The notes under the pieces are model-generated. The model searched no databases and was not told the origin of the DNA. It worked only from the letters and a program-made list of their open reading frames with translations. Below, one piece after another: positions 1,169-9,449 of a stretch of 64,000 nt of DNA. How positions within the stretch are numbered: the stretch's first letter is position 1; each line of letters opens with the position of its first letter. The stretch comes from Hyphomicrobiales bacterium (lineage in GTDB: Bacteria; Pseudomonadota; Alphaproteobacteria; Rhizobiales; Rhizobiaceae), in NCBI GenBank assembly GCA_900473745.1, contig UCMW01000021.1, positions 62,001 to 126,000 on the forward strand, in the 5' to 3' direction. Both the position numbers and the translations under genes were made by a program.

Positions 1169-1771
1169 TCAGGCCTTGAGGGCGCGGATGGCAAATTCGG
1201 TCAGTTCTTCCGGCTTGGCGCGATTGTCCTTGCCGATACATTGCGCGACCAATTGGGGATGGTGAAGCGGCGAAATCGCAGCACCGAAACAGCGGGCGAC
1301 ATGGACGGGATCGCCTTTGGCGAATTCACCCTTTTCCATGCCGTCGGCAATGATCCGAGCGAGAACCGCCTGCACTTCATCGATATGCTTGTCGATGACG
1401 CCCCAGCTCTGCTCGATCGCCACGACGGCCATTTCATGGACCTTTTTCTCGTCCATCATTGTCGCGACCGTGAATTCGAACTGGGCCATGGCATAGCGCC
1501 GCAGTCGCTCTTCGGCGCTCAACGGCATGGCAGCGAAATCCTCAGCTATCTTCAAGCTCTGTGCCAGAAGGCGTGCGCAGACACCTTCGAGCAGCTCACT
1601 TTTGGAAGCGAAGAAGCGGTAGATGTTCGCAGGCGACATGCCGAGCTCCTTCGCCACGTCGGCGACGGTCGTCTTGCTGTAGCCATAGTGCCGAAACTGA
1701 GCCTCCGCAGCCTCAAGGATGCGGGTGGCCATATCGGTGGTATCATTCGGATGCGGGGCAGCTTGTGTCAT
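1169..1771 (-). CDS. TetR/AcrR-family transcriptional repressor of the efflux operon
   Basis: A 200-residue one-domain regulator. The N-terminal helix-turn-helix lies around residues 18-62, with the family-typical AAEAQFRHYGYSKTTV and MSPANIYRFFASKSEL segments; the rest is the ligand-binding helical domain. It is the first gene of an apparent operon with the RND adaptor, so it is inferred to repress its own transcription and the pump until an effector binds. A long near-perfect palindrome begins only 6 bases upstream of its start codon, which fits autoregulation. An internal ATG at codon 14 is possible but would trim little. The effector is unknown. Confidence 0.9.
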   Translation of the reverse strand: MTQAAPHPNDTTDMATRILEAAEAQFRHYGYSKTTVADVAKELGMSPANIYRFFASKSELLEGVCARLLAQSLKIAEDFAAMPLSAEERLRRYAMAQFEFTVATMMDEKKVHEMAVVAIEQSWGVIDKHIDEVQAVLARIIADGMEKGEFAKGDPVHVARCFGAAISPLHHPQLVAQCIGKDNRAKPEELTEFAIRALKA

Positions 1772-2007: not shown

Positions 2008-3897
2008 TTACCGGGGCATGCCCTGCGGCCGCAGATGGCGCTTGAGTGCAGCGATGCGGAAGATCGCATTGGGGGCGCCGTAGCCGGCATAGCCGCGCCG
2101 CTGGACAATCTCGAAAAAGAAGCCTTCGCCATAAGTCGGAGAATAGAGCTGGAAGTACTCTCCCGCATCATCCCGGTCGTAGAGGATATTGGCGGCCTTC
2201 ATCCGTTCGACCAAGGCGGGATCCAGCCCGAAACGGGCTTCGATATCGTCGTAGTAGTTGGCCGAGATCGTCAGCGGCTTGAAGCCGTTTCGCGCCAGGG
2301 CGTCGGCGGTTGCGAAGATATCGTCTGTCTCGAAGGCGATATGCTGGATGCCAGAGCCGAAGGTTTCGGCGATGAAGCGCCCGGCGAGCGTGTTGCGATT
2401 TTCCGCACCATTCAGCGTGATGCGCAACCGACCGTCCTCTGTCTCGACCACCTGGCTCCTGACGACGCCGGCGGGATCGATGATGTCCACCATCGGGGTC
2501 TTCCGGGTCGAAAGCTGCGAGGTGTAGAAGAGCAGCCAGGTGAGCATTTCATCGTAGCGCGTCGTCTGGGCCAGATGGTCGATCCGCGTCAGACCGACGG
2601 TCGCATGGCTCTCATTCGCCTCGGACACCGGCTCGAACTCGACGTCCCAGATCTTGGCGAGCACACTCTTTTGGTCGAGGAAATAAACGATCCCTCCCCC
2701 GACCCCGCGAATGGCCGGCACCTGCATCTCGCCCGGGCCGACGACCTGGCGGAAATCTTCCGAGCCAAGCTGAAGCGCCCGGACATGGGCTGCCGCCGCA
2801 TCGTCGACCATCAGGCCGAAGGCATAGGCATTGGCGCCGTGTACGAGATACGACGCATTGGCGAACCCCTTCTCCTCGCGATTGATCACGAGGTTGATGT
2901 CGCCCTGCCGCATCAGGGTCACGGCCTTGGCGCGGTGGCGGGCAACGGTCCTGAAACCGAGGATCTGCAGCAGGGCTTCGAGTTCGCGCCCATCGTCATC
3001 ACCGACGGCGAATTCGACGAAGGCAATGCCGGACACTTCGCTGCGTTCAGGCATGTCCGGAACCGGGATACGCATATCTGGCTCGACGCGCCGGACCTGG
3101 TCCATGAGATAGACCAGCGATCGTCGACCATCCCTCGAGATCGCCTCAGGCGAACCACCACGGAACTGGTCGTTGAAGATCTCCAGTGAAAGATATCCGT
3201 CATAGCCCGTCGCAGCGATGGCCTGCATGAAGGGCGTCACGGCAAGGTCCCCCTCACCCGGCATGTTGCGGAAGTGGCGGGACCAGTAGAGGAGATCCAT
3301 CTCGATCAGAGGTGCATCGGCCAGCTGAACGATGAAGATCCGGTCACCGGGGATCGAGCGGATCGAGTTGACTTCGATCTTGCGCGCCAGCGTGTGAAAG
3401 CTGTCGAGGATGAGGCCGATATTCGCATGATCGGCCCGGCGGACGATTTCCCAGGCGTCGCGATGGTCGTTGATGTGGCGTCCCCAGGCCAGCGCTTCGT
3501 ATCCGACACGCAGGCCGCGTTTCGCTGCCCGCTCGCCAAGTTCGCGAAAATCGGCTGCCGCACGGTCGATGCCGCCGAGCGAAACGGCCGAGGTGTTCGA
3601 GCAGATCAGCATCAGATCCGTGCCGAGTTCGGCCATCAGGTCGAACTTTCGCTCGGCACGGTCGAAATTGCGGCTGCGAAAGGGCTCCGGCATGCCCTCG
3701 AAATCCCGAAAGGGCTGGAAGAGAGAGACGGTCAGCCCGTGATCGCGAACCATCTGGCCGACCTCGGCGGGCGATCGGTCGAAAGCCAGGAAGTCGTTCT
3801 CAAAAATCTCGATACCATCGAAACCGGCACGGGCGATCGCAGAGAGCTTTTCTTCGAATTCGCCGCTGATCGAGACCGTCGCAATTGAGGTTTTCAT
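2008..3897 (-). CDS. quiC: 3-dehydroshikimate dehydratase fused to an HPPD-like domain (QuiC/QsuB type)
   Basis: Converts 3-dehydroshikimate to protocatechuate, the step that commits quinate/shikimate to the beta-ketoadipate route. The N-terminal half (residues 1 to about 275) is a sugar-phosphate isomerase-like TIM barrel; the likely metal ligands E134, D165, Q191 and E239 are present, with H168 nearby. Residues from about 288 to 629 form two vicinal-oxygen-chelate repeats like 4-hydroxyphenylpyruvate dioxygenase, and keep an iron-triad-like set H441, H519, E596. The 629-residue length matches QuiC1/QsuB fusions. It is the last gene of the leftward operon, 31 bases after aroQ. The role of the second domain is uncertain. 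Confidence 0.9.
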   Translation of the reverse strand: MKTSIATVSISGEFEEKLSAIARAGFDGIEIFENDFLAFDRSPAEVGQMVRDHGLTVSLFQPFRDFEGMPEPFRSRNFDRAERKFDLMAELGTDLMLICSNTSAVSLGGIDRAAADFRELGERAAKRGLRVGYEALAWGRHINDHRDAWEIVRRADHANIGLILDSFHTLARKIEVNSIRSIPGDRIFIVQLADAPLIEMDLLYWSRHFRNMPGEGDLAVTPFMQAIAATGYDGYLSLEIFNDQFRGGSPEAISRDGRRSLVYLMDQVRRVEPDMRIPVPDMPERSEVSGIAFVEFAVGDDDGRELEALLQILGFRTVARHRAKAVTLMRQGDINLVINREEKGFANASYLVHGANAYAFGLMVDDAAAAHVRALQLGSEDFRQVVGPGEMQVPAIRGVGGGIVYFLDQKSVLAKIWDVEFEPVSEANESHATVGLTRIDHLAQTTRYDEMLTWLLFYTSQLSTRKTPMVDIIDPAGVVRSQVVETEDGRLRITLNGAENRNTLAGRFIAETFGSGIQHIAFETDDIFATADALARNGFKPLTISANYYDDIEARFGLDPALVERMKAANILYDRDDAGEYFQLYSPTYGEGFFFEIVQRRGYAGYGAPNAIFRIAALKRHLRPQGMPR

Positions 3898-3928
3898 CGC
3901 CGCATCCTCCGTTTCGCCCGCTGGCGCG

Positions 3929-4378
3929 TCACCGTTTGCCTTCCGCGACGAGCAGTTTCAGCGCTCGTACCGCATGGGGGTATCCCGTCGCCCCAAGGCC
4001 CGCCATGACGGCCGTGGCCGTCATCGAGACGAGGGATTTGTGATAGATCTGCTCGCGCCGGTGCACATTGCTGATGTGAAACTCGATGATCGGCCCCTTG
4101 AACATCTTGAGCGCATCGAGGAGCGCCAGCGAGGTGAAGGTGAAGGCGGCCGGATTGATCAGGATCCCGGAGCCCTCGTCGATTGCATCGTGTACGGACT
4201 CGATCAGCATCTCCTCGCTGTTGGTCTGGCGGAAGACGATTGGCCATTCGCCAGCGGCCTCCCGGCACCAGAACTCCACATCCGCCAGCGTATGATGGCC
4301 GTAGATCTCCGGCTCGCGGCGGCCCAGCCTGTTCAGGTTCGGGCCGTTCAGGATGAAGAGTGGCTTGTGATTTGTCAT
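3929..4378 (-). CDS. aroQ: Type II 3-dehydroquinate dehydratase
   Basis: Interconverts 3-dehydroquinate and 3-dehydroshikimate. It is a short 149-residue protein, the normal size for type II enzymes. The start at 4378 yields FILNGPNLNRLGRREPEIYG, carrying the conserved N-terminal loop with R21 and catalytic Y26; later come the INPAAFT and EFHISNVHRRE motifs with the catalytic histidine. An in-frame extension further upstream lies inside the neighbouring permease gene and is not credible. It sits between the TRAP permease and the dehydroshikimate dehydratase, so it probably serves catabolism (the qsuC/quiB role) rather than aromatic amino acid synthesis. Confidence 0.93.
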   Translation of the reverse strand: MTNHKPLFILNGPNLNRLGRREPEIYGHHTLADVEFWCREAAGEWPIVFRQTNSEEMLIESVHDAIDEGSGILINPAAFTFTSLALLDALKMFKGPIIEFHISNVHRREQIYHKSLVSMTATAVMAGLGATGYPHAVRALKLLVAEGKR

Positions 4379-4388
4379 ATGCTCCACC

Positions 4389-5690
4389 TCAACCCTGGTA
4401 GCCGAGAAGACGCGGCAGCCAAAGCACCGTGTCTGGAATGAAGGTGATGATGCCGAGGCACAGCACCATCCAGAGAATGAAGGGCCAGGCATCGCGGACG
4501 ATGTCGCGCAGCGGCGCGCCCGAGATCTTCGCCACGATGAAGAGCAGCAGGCCATATGGTGGCGTCACAAGCCCGAGCATAATGTTGACCACCACGACGA
4601 CACCGAAATGGACGAGATCGATACCGAGTGCCTGAGCCGTCGGGATGAGCACCGGGACGACGATCAGGAGGATGGTCGTTCCCTCGAGGAAGCAGCCGAG
4701 CAGCAGGAGCAAAATGTTGACGAAGATCAGGAAGACGATCGGGGACATTTCCCAGCTCGTCAGGATCGCCTTGATGCTTTCGGGGATGTTTTCGATGGTA
4801 ACGACGTAGTTGAAGACCAAGGCACCGGCGATCAGCATGCCGATGGAGGCCGTGGTCTTGCTGCTTGACAGCAAGGCTCCGTAAAGCGCGTTCCAGGTTA
4901 TACTCCGGTAGATGACCGCCGAGATCAGCAAGGCGTAGGCGGCAGCGAGTGCTGCAGCTTCGGTCGGGGTGGTGACACCCGAGTAGATGCAGCCGAGCAA
5001 CAGGACGGGCATCATGAGGGCCGGAAGCGCCCGCCAGGTGATGCCCGGGATCTCGCGCAGCGGCACCGGCTCTTCGACCGGGAAATTCTGCCGCCGGGCA
5101 GTGATCGCAACCTGCACCATCTGCAGCCCGGCCATCAGCAGGCCCGGGACCATGCCGGCGAGGAAGAGGTAGCCGATCGAGGCATCAGACACGAGCGCGT
5201 AGATCACCATCGGGATCGACGGCGGGATGATCGGTCCGATCACCGAAGTAACGGCGGTCAGCGCTGCCGCAAAGCTCGGTGTGTAGCGGTTTCCGTCCGT
5301 CATCAGCTTCTGCATCATACTGCCGGTTCCAGCAGCATCGGCAATCGCCGAACCGGACATGCCCGCAAAGATGATGCTCTGCACGACATTGACCTGGGCC
5401 AGACCGCCACGGAAGCGGCCAACCAGGACGTTACAGAAGGACAAGAGCCGCTCGGTCATCGAGCCGATATTCATGAGTTCGGCCGCCAGAATGAACAAAG
5501 GCACGGCAAGGATCACATAGTTCGAATACATGCCGTTGAGGAACTGCTCGGCCACGATCCCCATGTCAGCGCCGGATAGCGCGAGATAGAGGATCGATCC
5601 GCAGATCATCGAAAGTCCGATCGGAAGACCGAGAAATGCGAGCGCCGTGATGACGACAATCGAAAGGGAGAAGGGACTGGCCAGATTCAT
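4389..5690 (-). CDS. dctM: TRAP transporter large permease (DctM)
   Basis: A 433-residue inner-membrane protein made almost entirely of hydrophobic helices (about 12 predicted by eye), the ion-coupled translocation subunit of a TRAP uptake system. The segments MSGSAIADAAGTGSMM, GPIIPPSIPMV and VNIMLGLVTPPYGLLLF are typical of DctM. The ATG at 5690 overlaps the stop of dctQ by four bases, which indicates translational coupling; an upstream start would place a charged, non-membrane leader in front. It belongs to the leftward quinate/shikimate operon, so the cargo is inferred to be a hydroaromatic acid. Confidence 0.92.
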   Translation of the reverse strand: MNLASPFSLSIVVITALAFLGLPIGLSMICGSILYLALSGADMGIVAEQFLNGMYSNYVILAVPLFILAAELMNIGSMTERLLSFCNVLVGRFRGGLAQVNVVQSIIFAGMSGSAIADAAGTGSMMQKLMTDGNRYTPSFAAALTAVTSVIGPIIPPSIPMVIYALVSDASIGYLFLAGMVPGLLMAGLQMVQVAITARRQNFPVEEPVPLREIPGITWRALPALMMPVLLLGCIYSGVTTPTEAAALAAAYALLISAVIYRSITWNALYGALLSSSKTTASIGMLIAGALVFNYVVTIENIPESIKAILTSWEMSPIVFLIFVNILLLLLGCFLEGTTILLIVVPVLIPTAQALGIDLVHFGVVVVVNIMLGLVTPPYGLLLFIVAKISGAPLRDIVRDAWPFILWMVLCLGIITFIPDTVLWLPRLLGYQG

Positions 5691-6205
5691 ACGCCGGAAC
5701 TCGCTTTGGTCGGGTCGAAGCCCTCGGGCGCCTTGCCGCGGATCGCGAGCGTACAAAGCCAGAGGTGGCGCACGATCATGGCGATCGCGAAGACGACATA
5801 GATGGAATAGAGAATGTCGAACCGGATCTTGAGGTAAGCCGTGCTCTCGACTTTCATGAAGGTGACGTAGTCGATCACGGCTGGCAGCGACCAGGTGAAG
5901 AGCGCAACAAGACTGGCCGAACCAATGACCTGCATCACGCGGAGCCCGCGCGCCGTCGCCGCTCCCCAGAACAGATCGAAGCGGATCTCATCGGCTTCAC
6001 GCACGACGAAGGCCGAACCGAACAGCACCATCCAGATCCACAGCGCGACGCTCGCCTCATGGGTCCAACCGATCGAGAGATTGAAGAGATAGCGGGAGAA
6101 GATCTGCAGAAGGAAGATCACGAACATCGCGAGCAGCATCATGGCGATCAGGTTTTCCGCCCGATGCCTGAGCCAGCTTCCGATGGGAGCAAATCGATTG
6201 TCCAT
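5687..6205 (-). CDS. dctQ: TRAP transporter small permease (DctQ)
   Basis: A 172-residue protein with four hydrophobic helices and the WTHEASVALWIWMVLFGSA segment common in DctQ subunits. It pairs with DctM to form the membrane part of the TRAP transporter. Its stop overlaps the dctM start (ATGA), and it lies 66 bases after dctP, giving the usual P-Q-M order. No other function is plausible given size and context. Confidence 0.9.
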   Translation of the reverse strand: MDNRFAPIGSWLRHRAENLIAMMLLAMFVIFLLQIFSRYLFNLSIGWTHEASVALWIWMVLFGSAFVVREADEIRFDLFWGAATARGLRVMQVIGSASLVALFTWSLPAVIDYVTFMKVESTAYLKIRFDILYSIYVVFAIAMIVRHLWLCTLAIRGKAPEGFDPTKASSGV

Positions 6206-6271
6206 AGGCCGAGCCTTTCTGATGGGCCGGGAGCCGGAGTGTTCCAGCTCCCGGGTATCAATGGGATGGGC

Positions 6272-7264
6272 TCAGAGTGCGCCGACCTTGTCGAGGATGC
6301 CCTCCGGCCAGGACTTCGCGAGATCAGAAGCCAGATACTTCTCCTGCGCGAACTTGCGGAAGGCCGCGACATCCGGCTCGTAGATATCAAGGCCGGCAGC
6401 CTTGAACTCTTCGACCAGCGTCTTTTCCTGTGCGAGGTGCTGCTCTTCGCTCCACTGCATGGCCTTGTCGGCCGCCGCCTGCACCTTGGCCTGCTGTTCG
6501 GGCGAGAGCGACTTCCAGGTCTCGGCCGAGATGGTGAGAAGGTCGTAGCCAATCAGATGCGAGGTCATGACGATCTGCGACATGACTTCGTAGAACTTCA
6601 TGTTCTTGACGTTGGGCAGCGGATTGTCCTGGCCGTCGATCGCGCCGGTCTGCAGGCCGGTGTAGACTTCGGCATAGGCCATAGGCACCGGGTTGGCGCC
6701 GAGCGCTTCGCCAAGGAACTGCCAGGCATCACCGCCCGGCATGCGCAGCTTCACGCCCGAGAGATCAGCAGGCGTTGCAATCTTCTTGTCGCTCTTCAGG
6801 CCCACCTGGCGGGCGCCGAAATAGGTCGGTCCGAGAATGTAAACGCCAGCCTTTTCCTCGGCCATCTTCTTGAACTCGGCGCCGACGTCGCTTGCGAAGA
6901 AAGCACGCACGTGGGCCGCATCACGGAACAGATAGGCAGAGGTCAGCACCGACCACTCGGGCACCTGCTTGGCGATGTCCTGCGGGGCGATATTGCCCAT
7001 CTGCAGATTGCCGCGCTGGAGCGCGACGAGCTCCGTACCCTGCTTGAACAGGGTACCGCCGAAGAAGGGCTCGACCTTGAAGCCGTCCTTCAGTTCGTCG
7101 GCGAACATCTTGACCATGCCGGCGCGAATGTCCTGCTCGGAGAACACGGCCGAAAGCTTGAGCGTGACCGGCTCCTGGGCAAGCACCGGCATGGACCCGG
7201 CCATCATTGTGCCGAGCGCCACCGAACCTGCCAGAAACATGCGGCGTGAAAATTCCATCATCAT
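6272..7264 (-). CDS. dctP: TRAP transporter substrate-binding protein (DctP)
   Basis: A 330-residue periplasmic binding protein that delivers substrate to DctQM. The N-terminus SRRMFLAGSVALG resembles a twin-arginine signal, with probable cleavage after PVLAQ. The body has family segments such as LQTGAIDGQDNPLPNVK and KLRMPGGDAWQFLGEALGA, including the conserved Arg expected to bind a carboxylate. A strong AGGAGGAAGAC site precedes the first of three consecutive ATG codons. It sits 121 bases after the dehydrogenase gene, separated by a stable RNA hairpin. Quinate, shikimate or dehydroshikimate is inferred as ligand from the neighbouring genes only. Confidence 0.92.
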   Translation of the reverse strand: MMMEFSRRMFLAGSVALGTMMAGSMPVLAQEPVTLKLSAVFSEQDIRAGMVKMFADELKDGFKVEPFFGGTLFKQGTELVALQRGNLQMGNIAPQDIAKQVPEWSVLTSAYLFRDAAHVRAFFASDVGAEFKKMAEEKAGVYILGPTYFGARQVGLKSDKKIATPADLSGVKLRMPGGDAWQFLGEALGANPVPMAYAEVYTGLQTGAIDGQDNPLPNVKNMKFYEVMSQIVMTSHLIGYDLLTISAETWKSLSPEQQAKVQAAADKAMQWSEEQHLAQEKTLVEEFKAAGLDIYEPDVAAFRKFAQEKYLASDLAKSWPEGILDKVGAL

Positions 7265-7318
7265 GTCTTCCTCCTCTTGTCCCTGCCCCTCCTCGGGCTT
7301 CGGGATCTTCTTCTCCCT

Positions 7319-7336
7319 GACCGGCCGAAGCCGGTC
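7319..7336 (-). other. UUCG-tetraloop stem between the dehydrogenase and dctP
   Basis: On the minus strand the RNA would read GACCGGC-UUCG-GCCGGUC: a perfect 7-bp stem closed by the very stable C(UUCG)G tetraloop. No U-run follows directly, so it is not a classic terminator. It lies about 55 bases upstream of dctP in the operon and could stabilise the downstream transcript or block 3' exonuclease decay, raising the binding protein above its neighbours. This role is inference. Confidence 0.6.
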
Positions 7337-7385
7337 GACGAAATACGTTCATGCCAGCGCGAGGGGCCGGCCCAGTCTTATCGCG

Positions 7386-8273
7386 TCACGCAAGCTGCGC
7401 CAGAGCGATCTCGTCGGTGCCGGTAAGCTCCGCGAAATGGGCGAGCATGCGCTGCGCATCCGGCACCAGCCCGGTAAACAGGCCAAAAGCACCGACGGCC
7501 TGAAAGACCGCCATTCCGCCGCCATTGGCCACCCGACAGCCGCGCCGCCGCGCCGCCTGCAACAGGGCGGTCTCCAGCGGGAAATAGACGATTTCCGCGA
7601 CCCAAAGCGGCGGGTTCAAGAGTTCGGCCGGCAGGGGCAACCCCGGATGCTTGTCCATGCCCATGGGCGTCGCATGCACGAGGCCGCTGGCCGATGCCAT
7701 TGCACTTTCGAGATCGCGTGCGGGAACGACGACAGCCTCCGGAAAGAGCTTGGCCATATCGGAGGCGAGTTCTGCGGCGCGCACCGTGTCGATGTCGAAA
7801 ATCGTCAGCGTCCGGGCGCCCATCTGAAGCACGGCGAAGGCTGTCGCGGCGCCGGCACCTCCCGCACCGATCTGGACGACAGAGGAAAGATCGGCATCCG
7901 GTAGCTGCCGGCGCAACCCTTCGGCGAAGCCCGACCAATCCGTGTTGTGCCCGACCCGCTTGCCGTCGCGCAAGACGACGGTGTTGACGGCGCCGAGGCG
8001 CCGCGCATCGTTCGACATCTCGGTCAGGAGGGGTAGCACCCGCTGCTTGCAGGGATAAGTGATGTTGAGCCCGCAGAAGCCACGCGCCTCTGCCTCCAGG
8101 ATCAGCGCTTCAAGGTCGTCGGAGGTCTTCTTGCGCTCATTGAGATCGATGAGTTCATAGGAATAGGCCAGACCGTGGGCACGGCCCTCGCGCATGTGCA
8201 TGGCAGGCGTCAGCGACCGCTGAATGCCAAAGCCGATCAGGCCCGCCCTTGCCTCGTCACGCTGCTGTCTCAT
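7386..8273 (-). CDS. aroE: Quinate/shikimate dehydrogenase, QsuD-like (AroE family)
   Basis: Oxidises shikimate and/or quinate at C3 in the catabolic direction. The 295-residue protein shows the substrate-site S20-x-T22-PAMH, GLNITYP-K76, GAVNTVV and HNTD112 motifs, the VQIGAGGAG Rossmann loop and HATPMGMDKHPG. The sequence ATPMGM-HPG, the IVYFPLETALLQAAR stretch and the Asp-rich end of strand two (IFD160ID) match the NAD-dependent Corynebacterium QsuD group better than biosynthetic AroE, which has an NRT-type NADP loop there. The start at 8273 is preferred because upstream codons are not family-like. It is first in the leftward operon; NAD preference is inferred from D160. Confidence 0.88.
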   Translation of the reverse strand: MRQQRDEARAGLIGFGIQRSLTPAMHMREGRAHGLAYSYELIDLNERKKTSDDLEALILEAEARGFCGLNITYPCKQRVLPLLTEMSNDARRLGAVNTVVLRDGKRVGHNTDWSGFAEGLRRQLPDADLSSVVQIGAGGAGAATAFAVLQMGARTLTIFDIDTVRAAELASDMAKLFPEAVVVPARDLESAMASASGLVHATPMGMDKHPGLPLPAELLNPPLWVAEIVYFPLETALLQAARRRGCRVANGGGMAVFQAVGAFGLFTGLVPDAQRMLAHFAELTGTDEIALAQLA

Positions 8274-8347
8274 GCCTGCTCCCGTCGTCCAAGGCACGAT
8301 GACCACCGTCGTCGTGCGGCCTCCCAACCTGGACACAGCAATAATGT

Positions 8348-8361
8348 ACGAACTAGTTAGT
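8348..8361. promoter_or_regulatory. Operator-like palindrome in the divergent aroE/tetR promoter region
   Basis: ACGAACTAGTTAGT is a 14-base inverted repeat with one mismatched pair around a perfect AACTAGTT core. It lies 75 bases from the dehydrogenase start and about 100 from the tetR start, in the only sizeable spacer of the cluster (8274-8463). The location suggests the site through which the divergent TetR protein controls both directions. Binding is inferred. Confidence 0.55.
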
Positions 8362-8463
8362 GTCAACGCCGTCAAGGCTTGATGCCAAGGTCACGGGGTT
8401 CTATGAACAGGTGGCTGGACGCAGGGATCAAGGGGCGTGCACGCCGACCCGGGATGGAGGAGC

Positions 8464-9111
8464 ATGGCTAAGACGGCGAAAGACACGCGCAGGAATGACC
8501 CTGAACGAACCAGGGAGGACATTCTGGATGTCGCAACGGAAGAGTTTTCCGAATTCGGCCTGTCGGGCGCGCGAGTCGATTCGATCGCCGAAAAGACACG
8601 CACGTCGAAGCGCATGATCTACTACTATTACGGCAGCAAGGAAGGGCTCTACCTTGCTGTCCTCGAGCGGGCTTACCGCAAGATCCGCTCGCTGGAGTCA
8701 GACCTGCAACTCGCAGAATTGCCACCCGAAGAGGCACTGCGGCAGCTGATCGGCACGACCTTCGATCACGACGAGCAGAACCCGGACTTCGTTCGGCTGG
8801 TCAGCATCGAGAACATCCACCATGCGATGCATATGACAAGATCAAACGAGATTGCGGATCTCAACATCTCCGTCATTCGCACCATTCAGGATATCCTTGA
8901 TCGGGGCCTGAAGAGCGGCGTCTTCAAGCGGCAGGCGGACGCGATCGACCTGCATATGCTCATAAGTGCATTCTGCTTTTTCCGGGTGTCGAACAGGTAC
9001 ACTTTCGGGACGATCTTCAAGCGCGATCTCTCCGAGCCTCTTCTCTATGCGCGGCACAAATCGATGATCACGAATGCGGTTCTCGGCTATCTGCGCGCGG
9101 ACTCACCCTGA
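8464..9111 (+). CDS. TetR-family regulator divergent from the quinate/shikimate operon
   Basis: A 215-residue regulator. Residues about 15-65 form the DNA-binding domain (ILDVATEEFSEFGLSGARV, then KRMIYYYYGSKEGLYLAVL), followed by a TetR_C-type ligand domain. The ATG at 8464 is preceded by GGATGGAGGAGC, a far better ribosome site than that of the in-frame ATG at 8437. It is transcribed away from the dehydrogenase/TRAP/dehydratase operon and is the obvious candidate for its substrate-responsive repressor. Catabolic quinate genes are usually described with LysR- or IclR-type regulators, so a TetR protein here is of some note. The ligand is unknown. Confidence 0.9.
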   Translation: MAKTAKDTRRNDPERTREDILDVATEEFSEFGLSGARVDSIAEKTRTSKRMIYYYYGSKEGLYLAVLERAYRKIRSLESDLQLAELPPEEALRQLIGTTFDHDEQNPDFVRLVSIENIHHAMHMTRSNEIADLNISVIRTIQDILDRGLKSGVFKRQADAIDLHMLISAFCFFRVSNRYTFGTIFKRDLSEPLLYARHKSMITNAVLGYLRADSP

Positions 9112-9373
9112 GCCTGTCGCGCATTTCCGCCTCCGGCCTCCCTGTTGCGAAGACTTGTGACGCGACAGACCCACGACGCTGCAAGCCTTCGGAACACGGA
9201 CGATCGTATTGCAACGAGTGGCACCCGCCAGCCTTAGGGCCGCCGAATCAGCCGTGCCGCGCTGGTCGAGGACAGTCTGGGCGAACGTCATCGAGATGCT
9301 CTTGCAGCACGCCGATCGCCAAGTTTGCGGGATTTCTTCCAGTCAAAATCAGGGCTGGCAGCCTGAGGCTTTA

Positions 9374-9449
9374 TGGTGCCCGGAGGCGGATTTGAACCAC
9401 CGACACGCGGATTTTCAATCCGCTGCTCTACCAACTGAGCTATCCGGGC
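9374..9449 (-). tRNA. tRNA-Phe (GAA)
   Basis: The minus strand folds as a complete cloverleaf: acceptor GCCCGGA, D-arm GCTC..GAGC, anticodon loop TTGAAAA (anticodon GAA), T-arm GGTTCAAATCC and an encoded CCA tail. The length is 76 bases with CCA. It lies downstream of yacG in the same direction. Confidence 0.97.

Follow-up and report, generated by a model that had tools for sequence, protein, structure and literature searches.

A probable TetR-repressed alphaproteobacterial operon joining a TRAP transporter to an altered dehydroquinase for growth on quinate or a similar acid

The stretch of DNA analysed here (the window) comprises 64,000 nucleotides (nt) from a Hyphomicrobiales bacterium of the family Rhizobiaceae (contig UCMW01000021.1, positions 62,001 to 126,000). 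Near its start lies a cluster of seven genes that probably serves the uptake of quinate, or of a very close hydroaromatic acid, and its conversion to protocatechuate, under repression by a TetR-family regulator. Six of the genes are read from the minus strand, from 8273 down to 2008, in the order shikimate/quinate dehydrogenase (SDH), dctP, dctQ, dctM, type II dehydroquinase (DHQ) and quiC; the TetR gene is divergent (Table 1). All seven are open frames with no internal stops, and the Pfam family calls for their proteins score above the gathering scores. This confirms the co-directional order described in a first-pass annotation made from the letters of the stretch, and the family matches also support its three enzyme assignments. 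The domains of a complete tripartite ATP-independent periplasmic (TRAP) transporter, DctP, DctQ and DctM, are encoded side by side. The 'short spacers or overlaps' of that annotation hold for dctQ and dctM, which overlap by 4 nt, and for the gaps between dctM and DHQ (10 nt) and between DHQ and quiC (31 nt), but not for those between SDH and dctP (121 nt) or dctP and dctQ (66 nt).

Table 1. Genes and candidate operator of the cluster (positions in the window).
Feature	Position	Strand	Family or other support
quiC, 3-dehydroshikimate dehydratase-like, fused to a 4-hydroxyphenylpyruvate dioxygenase (HPPD)-like domain, 629 amino acids	2008..3897	minus	PF01261 + PF14696 (AP_endonuc_2 + Glyoxalase_5)
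DHQ, type II dehydroquinase-like, Phe81 + Tyr112	3929..4378	minus	PF01220
dctM, TRAP large permease	4389..5690	minus	PF06808; TIGR00786, 404.4 bits (cut-off 268.45)
dctQ, TRAP small permease	5687..6205	minus	PF04290
dctP, TRAP solute-binding protein, 330 amino acids	6272..7264	minus	PF03480; nearest solved structure 4pf6, 41%
SDH, AroE-like shikimate/quinate dehydrogenase, 295 amino acids	7386..8273	minus	Shikimate_dh_N; NF009201 (PRK12549)
Candidate TetR operator ACTAACTAGTTCGTAC, within TTGACACTAACTAGTTCGTACATTATT (8340-8366)	8346..8361	minus	conserved palindrome
TetR-family regulator, 215 amino acids, divergent	8464..9111	plus	TetR_N PF00440 + TetR_C_29 PF17938

The unit is recurrent in alphaproteobacteria and widely conserved. 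A scan of named genomes with an alignment of DctP gave 549 relatives, of which the best 80 (66-98% identity) were kept; the nearest are from Rhizobiaceae, for example Peteryoungia ipomoeae and Rhizobium sp. Flanks of up to 9 kb were taken around these loci, with more than 8 kb on each side for 66 of the 80 and some ended by the contig. The same gene order in related genomes, which had been proposed as a check, was looked for in this set, and DHQ lies directly 3′ of dctM in 78 of the 80 loci. One of the two exceptions (L248) has its contig end 1 base past dctM, and the other (L215) holds only a 24-residue piece of DHQ; all DHQ sequences taken from the loci have at least 120 residues. With no identity floor, the flanks contain matches to SDH in 70 of the 80 loci, to TetR in 64, to QuiC in 58, to GntR in 31 and to PcaH-type genes in 13, 11 of these in Mesorhizobium. 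The genera with the unit include Peteryoungia, Rhizobium, Neorhizobium, Sinorhizobium, Mesorhizobium, Devosia, Aminobacter and Microvirga, among others, and plasmid-borne copies are found in Chelatococcus, Haematobacter, Paracoccus, Loktanella and Alloyangia. At seven loci (L031, L033, L067, L070, L074, L075 and L093) there is an inserted pair of genes, one SMP-30/gluconolactonase-like and the other a second DctP-like gene, which might encode an enzyme that opens lactones and a binding protein dedicated to it.

A counterpart with a measured ligand is provided by Sinorhizobium meliloti. According to the portion of PMC3454389 consulted, the TRAP binding protein SMb20036 binds D-quinate with a dissociation constant of 5.9 nM and shikimate only near 0.1 mM, perhaps, in the view of its authors, through contamination with quinate; an 8.7-fold induction of the gene by quinate is cited there from earlier work. 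Like the window, the locus SMb20034-SMb20037 (pSymB record) has a divergent TetR gene (72% identical) and an SDH gene (66%), with TRAP genes between them. Unlike those of the window, however, its DctP and DctM are only 27% (over 340 columns) and 36% identical to their counterparts, the order of the TRAP genes is QMP by eye rather than PQM, and the 30 kb searched contains no match to DHQ or quiC. Related regulators and dehydrogenases are thus paired with two different TRAP transporters. An assignment of the window DctP as an orthologue of SMb20036 was rejected at 27% identity, and since the transporter is of a different clade, the S. meliloti work does not show the ligand of the window DctP. 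Homologues of SMb20036 above 55% identity occur in two of the 150 genomes searched, G085 and G023 (58%); that of G085 (68-69%) stands at a TetR-SDH locus with TetR and SDH each 62% identical. The genome of the window itself has a 43% homologue on another contig (C31), which may, judged by likeness, belong to a second TRAP transporter of the SMb20036 type with the same ligand.

Control by the divergent regulator is supported by a conserved operator candidate. The pattern ACKAACTAGTTMGTAC was compared with 70 intergenic stretches between TetR and SDH genes. Where the regulator is at least 60% identical (33 loci, including the window and S. meliloti), all 33 stretches come within two mismatches: 25 are exact, three have one mismatch and five have two, and base-shuffled copies never had fewer than four. 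Among the 37 loci with a TetR below 60%, 29 lie within one mismatch and the other eight at three to six, with shuffled copies never below three. Because the pattern itself derives from these sequences, and because many loci are closely related to one another, the matches are not independent events; S. meliloti (whose upstream palindrome has one mismatch), Neorhizobium, Agrobacterium and Nitratireductor nevertheless stand well apart among the holders of the site. In the genome of the window an exact match occurs once, and matches with two mismatches are no commoner there than in the control, giving no indication of further sites of a regulon. The palindrome overlaps a TTGACA motif, which is why the regulator is taken to repress. 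The earlier suggestion that uptake by TRAP together with control by TetR would be a less described version of the pathway holds in part: quinate uptake by TRAP is already published for SMb20036 (PMC3454389, portion consulted), whereas the operator candidate lends sequence support to TetR control.

The enzymes at the two ends of the operon have solved relatives. SDH belongs to the subfamily NF009201 (PRK12549), at 442.3 bits against a cut-off of 235, and its best solved relative, 3jyo, is named a quinate/shikimate dehydrogenase. QuiC is a fusion of a TIM barrel with an HPPD-like domain and matches 5hmq over residues 1-620 (E 8.6e-179); no second QuiC is found in the genome at E 1e-5. The genes for the further use of protocatechuate, pcaD, pcaC, pcaH and pcaG, are located on another contig (C16), and all four exceed their respective NCBIfam equivalog cut-offs. 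The cluster thus feeds a pathway coded elsewhere, and 'self-contained', as it had been called, is too strong a term.

For the dehydroquinase, the part of PMC6011038 consulted describes how the substrate is held: its C5 hydroxyl by His81 and Arg112, its C4 hydroxyl by Asp88 from the adjacent subunit, and its carboxylate and C1 hydroxyl by Asn75 and neighbouring residues. A further role proposed for Arg112 is in lowering the pKa of the catalytic tyrosine, and losing this residue may therefore reduce activity. In this Mycobacterium tuberculosis numbering, assigned by motif and equal to that of the window protein from position 75 onward, the window DHQ has Phe at 81 and Tyr at 112, and the residues replaced are exactly the published contacts of the C5 hydroxyl. 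The four solved enzymes aligned (three of them near-identical) carry His and Arg at these positions, as does the genome's own second dehydroquinase on contig C28. The protein meets the subfamily cut-offs of NF003806 (176.5 against 171 bits) and NF003807 (167.5 against 130).

The altered enzymes form a clade. Among 154 DHQ rows taken from loci (including the window and the genome's own AroQ, and with some genomes appearing twice), 134 have Phe/Tyr, 16 His/Arg, two Phe/His, one Thr/Arg and one Ser/Arg; among 147 distinct sequences, the counts are 111 for Phe/Tyr and 31 for His/Arg. All 111 fall, with a single Phe/Arg member (L269, near a TctA-like gene), into one clade of 112 distinct sampled sequences with a support of 0.956. 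Across all 142 sequences with Phe/Tyr or His/Arg, no variation is seen at the window residues Arg21 and Tyr26 (equivalent to Arg19 and Tyr24), Asn75, Asp88, Glu99, His101 and Arg108; the catalytic set of two Arg, Tyr, Asn, Asp and His is retained. The pairs Thr/Arg, Ser/Arg and Phe/His of L099, L100, L092 and L095 lie just outside the clade, and the residue pairs look as if His81 had been lost first and Arg112 later. In a survey of the order, 25 of 28 matches at least 60% identical to DHQ stand beside a DctP match; in a survey of the phylum, 12 of 398 genomes gave a DHQ match at E 1e-44, some with Phe81 and some with His81. Phe81 is also present in two more genomes (L291 and L293, read at position 81), where cluster genes were not found in the short flanks. 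The Phe81/Tyr112 clade is not strictly confined to this TRAP transporter: in L268, L270 and L271 such a DHQ follows an SBP_bac_3 gene of an ATP-binding cassette (ABC) operon, the ABC ATPase being confirmed by Pfam in L268 and the other ABC genes recognised by eye. In L268 and L270 the stretch also has genes for aldo/keto reductase and TIM-barrel proteins and gave no match to quiC. By their names, none of the 38 dehydroquinases in the part of PMC4314829 consulted is from Rhizobiales or Rhodobacterales.

The type of DHQ tracks the type of DctP. The 80 named loci, all with DctP at least 60% identical, comprise 78 with Phe/Tyr and two without an intact DHQ. In a second set, fetched from other genomes (DctP row in 78 of 80 loci), there are 43 Phe/Tyr and two Phe/His at DctP identities of at least 60%; one Thr/Arg and one Ser/Arg at 56-60%; seven His/Arg, one Phe/Tyr and 22 without DHQ at 45-56%; and one without DHQ below 45%. 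The 14 plasmid loci comprise 11 Phe/Tyr (one with a DctP of 59.9%), one His/Arg and two without DHQ. In a tree of 150 DctP sequences, those linked to Phe/Tyr, minus the outlier L104, fall within a clade of 114 with a support of 0.988. The same clade takes in the DctPs of the loci with Phe/His (two), Thr/Arg (one) and Ser/Arg (one) and of the two that lack an intact DHQ; adding L104 lowers the support of the node to 0.289. This pairing bears on the idea that the transporter carries an unrelated acid, such as a sugar acid or a keto-deoxy acid, and stands in the operon by accident. The nearest neighbours of DctP in fold and sequence are indeed 4pf6, whose ligand is presumably a keto-deoxy sugar acid (not used as evidence here), and sialic-acid binding proteins; the predicted model, used solely to list fold neighbours, has a mean predicted local distance difference test (pLDDT) score of 74, with residues 196-236 below 50. 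Several sister TRAP loci, moreover, carry a gene of the dihydrodipicolinate synthase (DHDPS) family in place of DHQ; in seven genomes of the same genus (L133 and L164-L169), TetR, SDH and QuiC genes are followed by another TRAP transporter (DctP 42-44%) and a DHDPS-family gene, without DHQ. An accidental association is nonetheless very improbable, given the recurrence of DHQ after dctM in 78 of 80 loci from many genera and the joint change in the types of DctP and DHQ. Import of a hydroaromatic acid by TRAP, as first proposed, is the best inference from the sequences.

One alternative is that the transporter brings in a quinate modified at C5, such as a 5-O-acyl derivative (chlorogenate is one), a 5-O-glycosyl derivative or the C5 epimer, with the DHQ clade adapted to it and a QuiC-type elimination expelling the C5 substituent. 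Of the 112 clade members, 111 have both residues that hold the C5 hydroxyl replaced while the catalytic residues are invariant, the change goes with one DctP clade and with the SBP_bac_3 ABC operons, and intermediate pairs (Thr/Arg, Ser/Arg and Phe/His) occur. The joint retention, in many genera, of an importer and an enzyme altered at one position of the substrate would fit. The QuiC reaction removes the C5 oxygen, so that a 5-O-substituted acid should still give protocatechuate and a 5-deoxy acid should not. This chemistry is, however, the authors' own reasoning; Tyr112 could still bind a hydroxyl; and the sampling leans towards the Phe/Tyr clade, as sequences were found by their likeness to the window DHQ or DctP. 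In addition, the dehydrogenase looks the same as at loci with an ordinary DHQ or none. In a comparison, confined to SDH, of 104 loci of this type (defined by a nearby DHQ at least 60% identical, not by its residues) with 25 others, only one aligned column (overlap 0.26) fell under the threshold of 0.3, and the pocket motifs are common to both groups. A specificity change in SDH to match the change in DHQ was sought and not found, which favours plain quinate as the pathway substrate; a C5-changed acid is considered unlikely. Less likely still is the more specific proposal that the Phe81/Tyr112 clade is an importer-coupled enzyme for C5-altered hydroaromatic acids, for example 5-O-acylquinates such as chlorogenate. 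Here, TRAP or ABC transporters would import the whole derivative, oxidation at C3 and dehydration by the remodelled DHQ would follow, and elimination by QuiC would yield protocatechuate and the free acid with no esterase. Literature searches, which covered open-licence papers and did not have chlorogenate as a term, turned up no such esterase-free route. If it were true, it would be a bacterial route to plant acyl-quinates and a new tool for making protocatechuate; if DHQ takes plain 3-dehydroquinate, two substrate-holding residues of the known enzymes are dispensable.

The substrate could also enter one step later, as 3-dehydroquinate (or 3-dehydroshikimate) that pyrroloquinoline quinone (PQQ) quinate dehydrogenases, whether of this bacterium or of others, have formed outside the inner membrane. 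DHQ would then act on it directly and SDH would serve shikimate. The smallest conserved unit is dctPQM-DHQ, found in L204-L206 with GntR and without SDH or QuiC in the flank. Two Rhodobacterales plasmid loci with no SDH match have genes annotated as membrane PQQ dehydrogenases (glucose/quinate/shikimate family) near the unit: in Alloyangia the gene lies immediately upstream of dctP, and in Paracoccus alcaliphilus some 6 kb off. This alternative is given little chance, as SDH is the first gene of the window operon, the S. meliloti counterpart binds quinate itself, and a QuiA-like match occurs in just two of the 80 named loci and is weak (23-24%).

Taken together, a TetR-repressed operon for quinate or a very close acid is the most probable explanation. 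Without inducer, TetR would sit on the palindrome overlapping TTGACA upstream of SDH, at the putative promoter; the acid or an early product would release it, allowing the operon to be read. DctP would capture the acid in the periplasm and DctQM would import it. SDH would then oxidise it to 3-dehydroquinate, DHQ would dehydrate this to 3-dehydroshikimate, and QuiC would aromatise the latter to protocatechuate, with flux running into the β-ketoadipate pathway through the pca genes elsewhere in the genome. This reading is suggested by the complete set of enzymes in one operon and by the position of DHQ directly after dctM, as DHQ is needed for quinate and dispensable for shikimate. It draws further on the close TetR and SDH beside a quinate-binding, quinate-induced TRAP in S. 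meliloti, on the operator candidate that this species shares, on an SDH without a shift in specificity, on pcaDCHG in the genome and PcaH-type genes in the flanks of relatives, and on the PQQ dehydrogenase-annotated genes near dctP in Alloyangia and P. alcaliphilus.

Several observations weigh against it. DHQ lacks the two residues that contact the C5 hydroxyl of 3-dehydroquinate in known enzymes, and three enzymes score below the equivalogs: DHQ below aroQ TIGR01088 (145.1 against 169.85 bits), SDH below the NAD quinate/shikimate dehydrogenase NF010631 (271.3 against 515) and QuiC below NF042435 (670.6 against 1200). In the flanks of the 80 named loci, QuiC is not found in 22 and SDH in 10, some of which contig ends explain, and four of the 70 SDH matches are just 36-38% identical. 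At 27% identity to SMb20036, the ligand of DctP is not transferable by orthology, and DctP relatives at 42-50%, which by eye include those most like 4pf6, frequently have a DHDPS-family gene as their neighbour rather than DHQ. A simple sigma-70 scan of 7200-9400 called no promoter, and TTGACA is not present in the S. meliloti site.

Downstream of quiC, in the same direction, follow a second TetR gene (TetR_C_27, 1169-1771, minus strand) and a gene for a resistance-nodulation-division (RND) efflux adaptor (TIGR01730, 2-1144, minus strand) that runs past the start of the window. At the other border lies a tRNA-Phe gene (9374-9449), which is also the neighbour in the nearest relative, L184, and was not found at nine further loci that were scanned, including two of the TRAP-DHDPS type; judged by this neighbourhood, the cluster may have changed its place.

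Plants are rich in quinate, shikimate and esters of these acids, and the cluster offers a widespread, testable alphaproteobacterial system with a single palindrome, a binding protein and an odd enzyme. The known routes of this kind use a carrier of the major facilitator superfamily (MFS) and control of the LysR or IclR type. Those with the same three reactions are qsu of Corynebacterium glutamicum and qui of Pseudomonas putida. The cluster is like them in that its SDH resembles 3jyo and its QuiC resembles 5hmq, presumably QuiC1; it differs in having a TRAP transporter, a TetR regulator and a DHQ of the Phe81/Tyr112 clade. Closer to home, ten further genomes (nine of the same genus and one of the same family) have TetR (50-54%), SDH and QuiC together. 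ABC-transporter genes, recognised by eye, stand beside these in the five of the ten whose frames were read (L175 and L177 among them); DHQ is present in seven (L172, L175 and L177-L181) and, at the ABC loci that have it, carries His81 and Arg112. Compared with canonical AroQ, the window DHQ is of the same family, PF01220, and keeps the catalytic residues, but has Phe for His81 and Tyr for Arg112. In the parts of PMC10041152, PMC12542648 and PMC4960864 consulted there is nothing on TetR or this TRAP, and the literature searches, which covered open-licence papers and mostly at the level of listings, met neither this TRAP clade nor the operator candidate nor the Phe81/Tyr112 clade. The link between TRAP and quinate is already known from S. 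meliloti; the present analysis contributes this particular TRAP clade, the candidate operator and the clade of Phe81/Tyr112 dehydroquinases.

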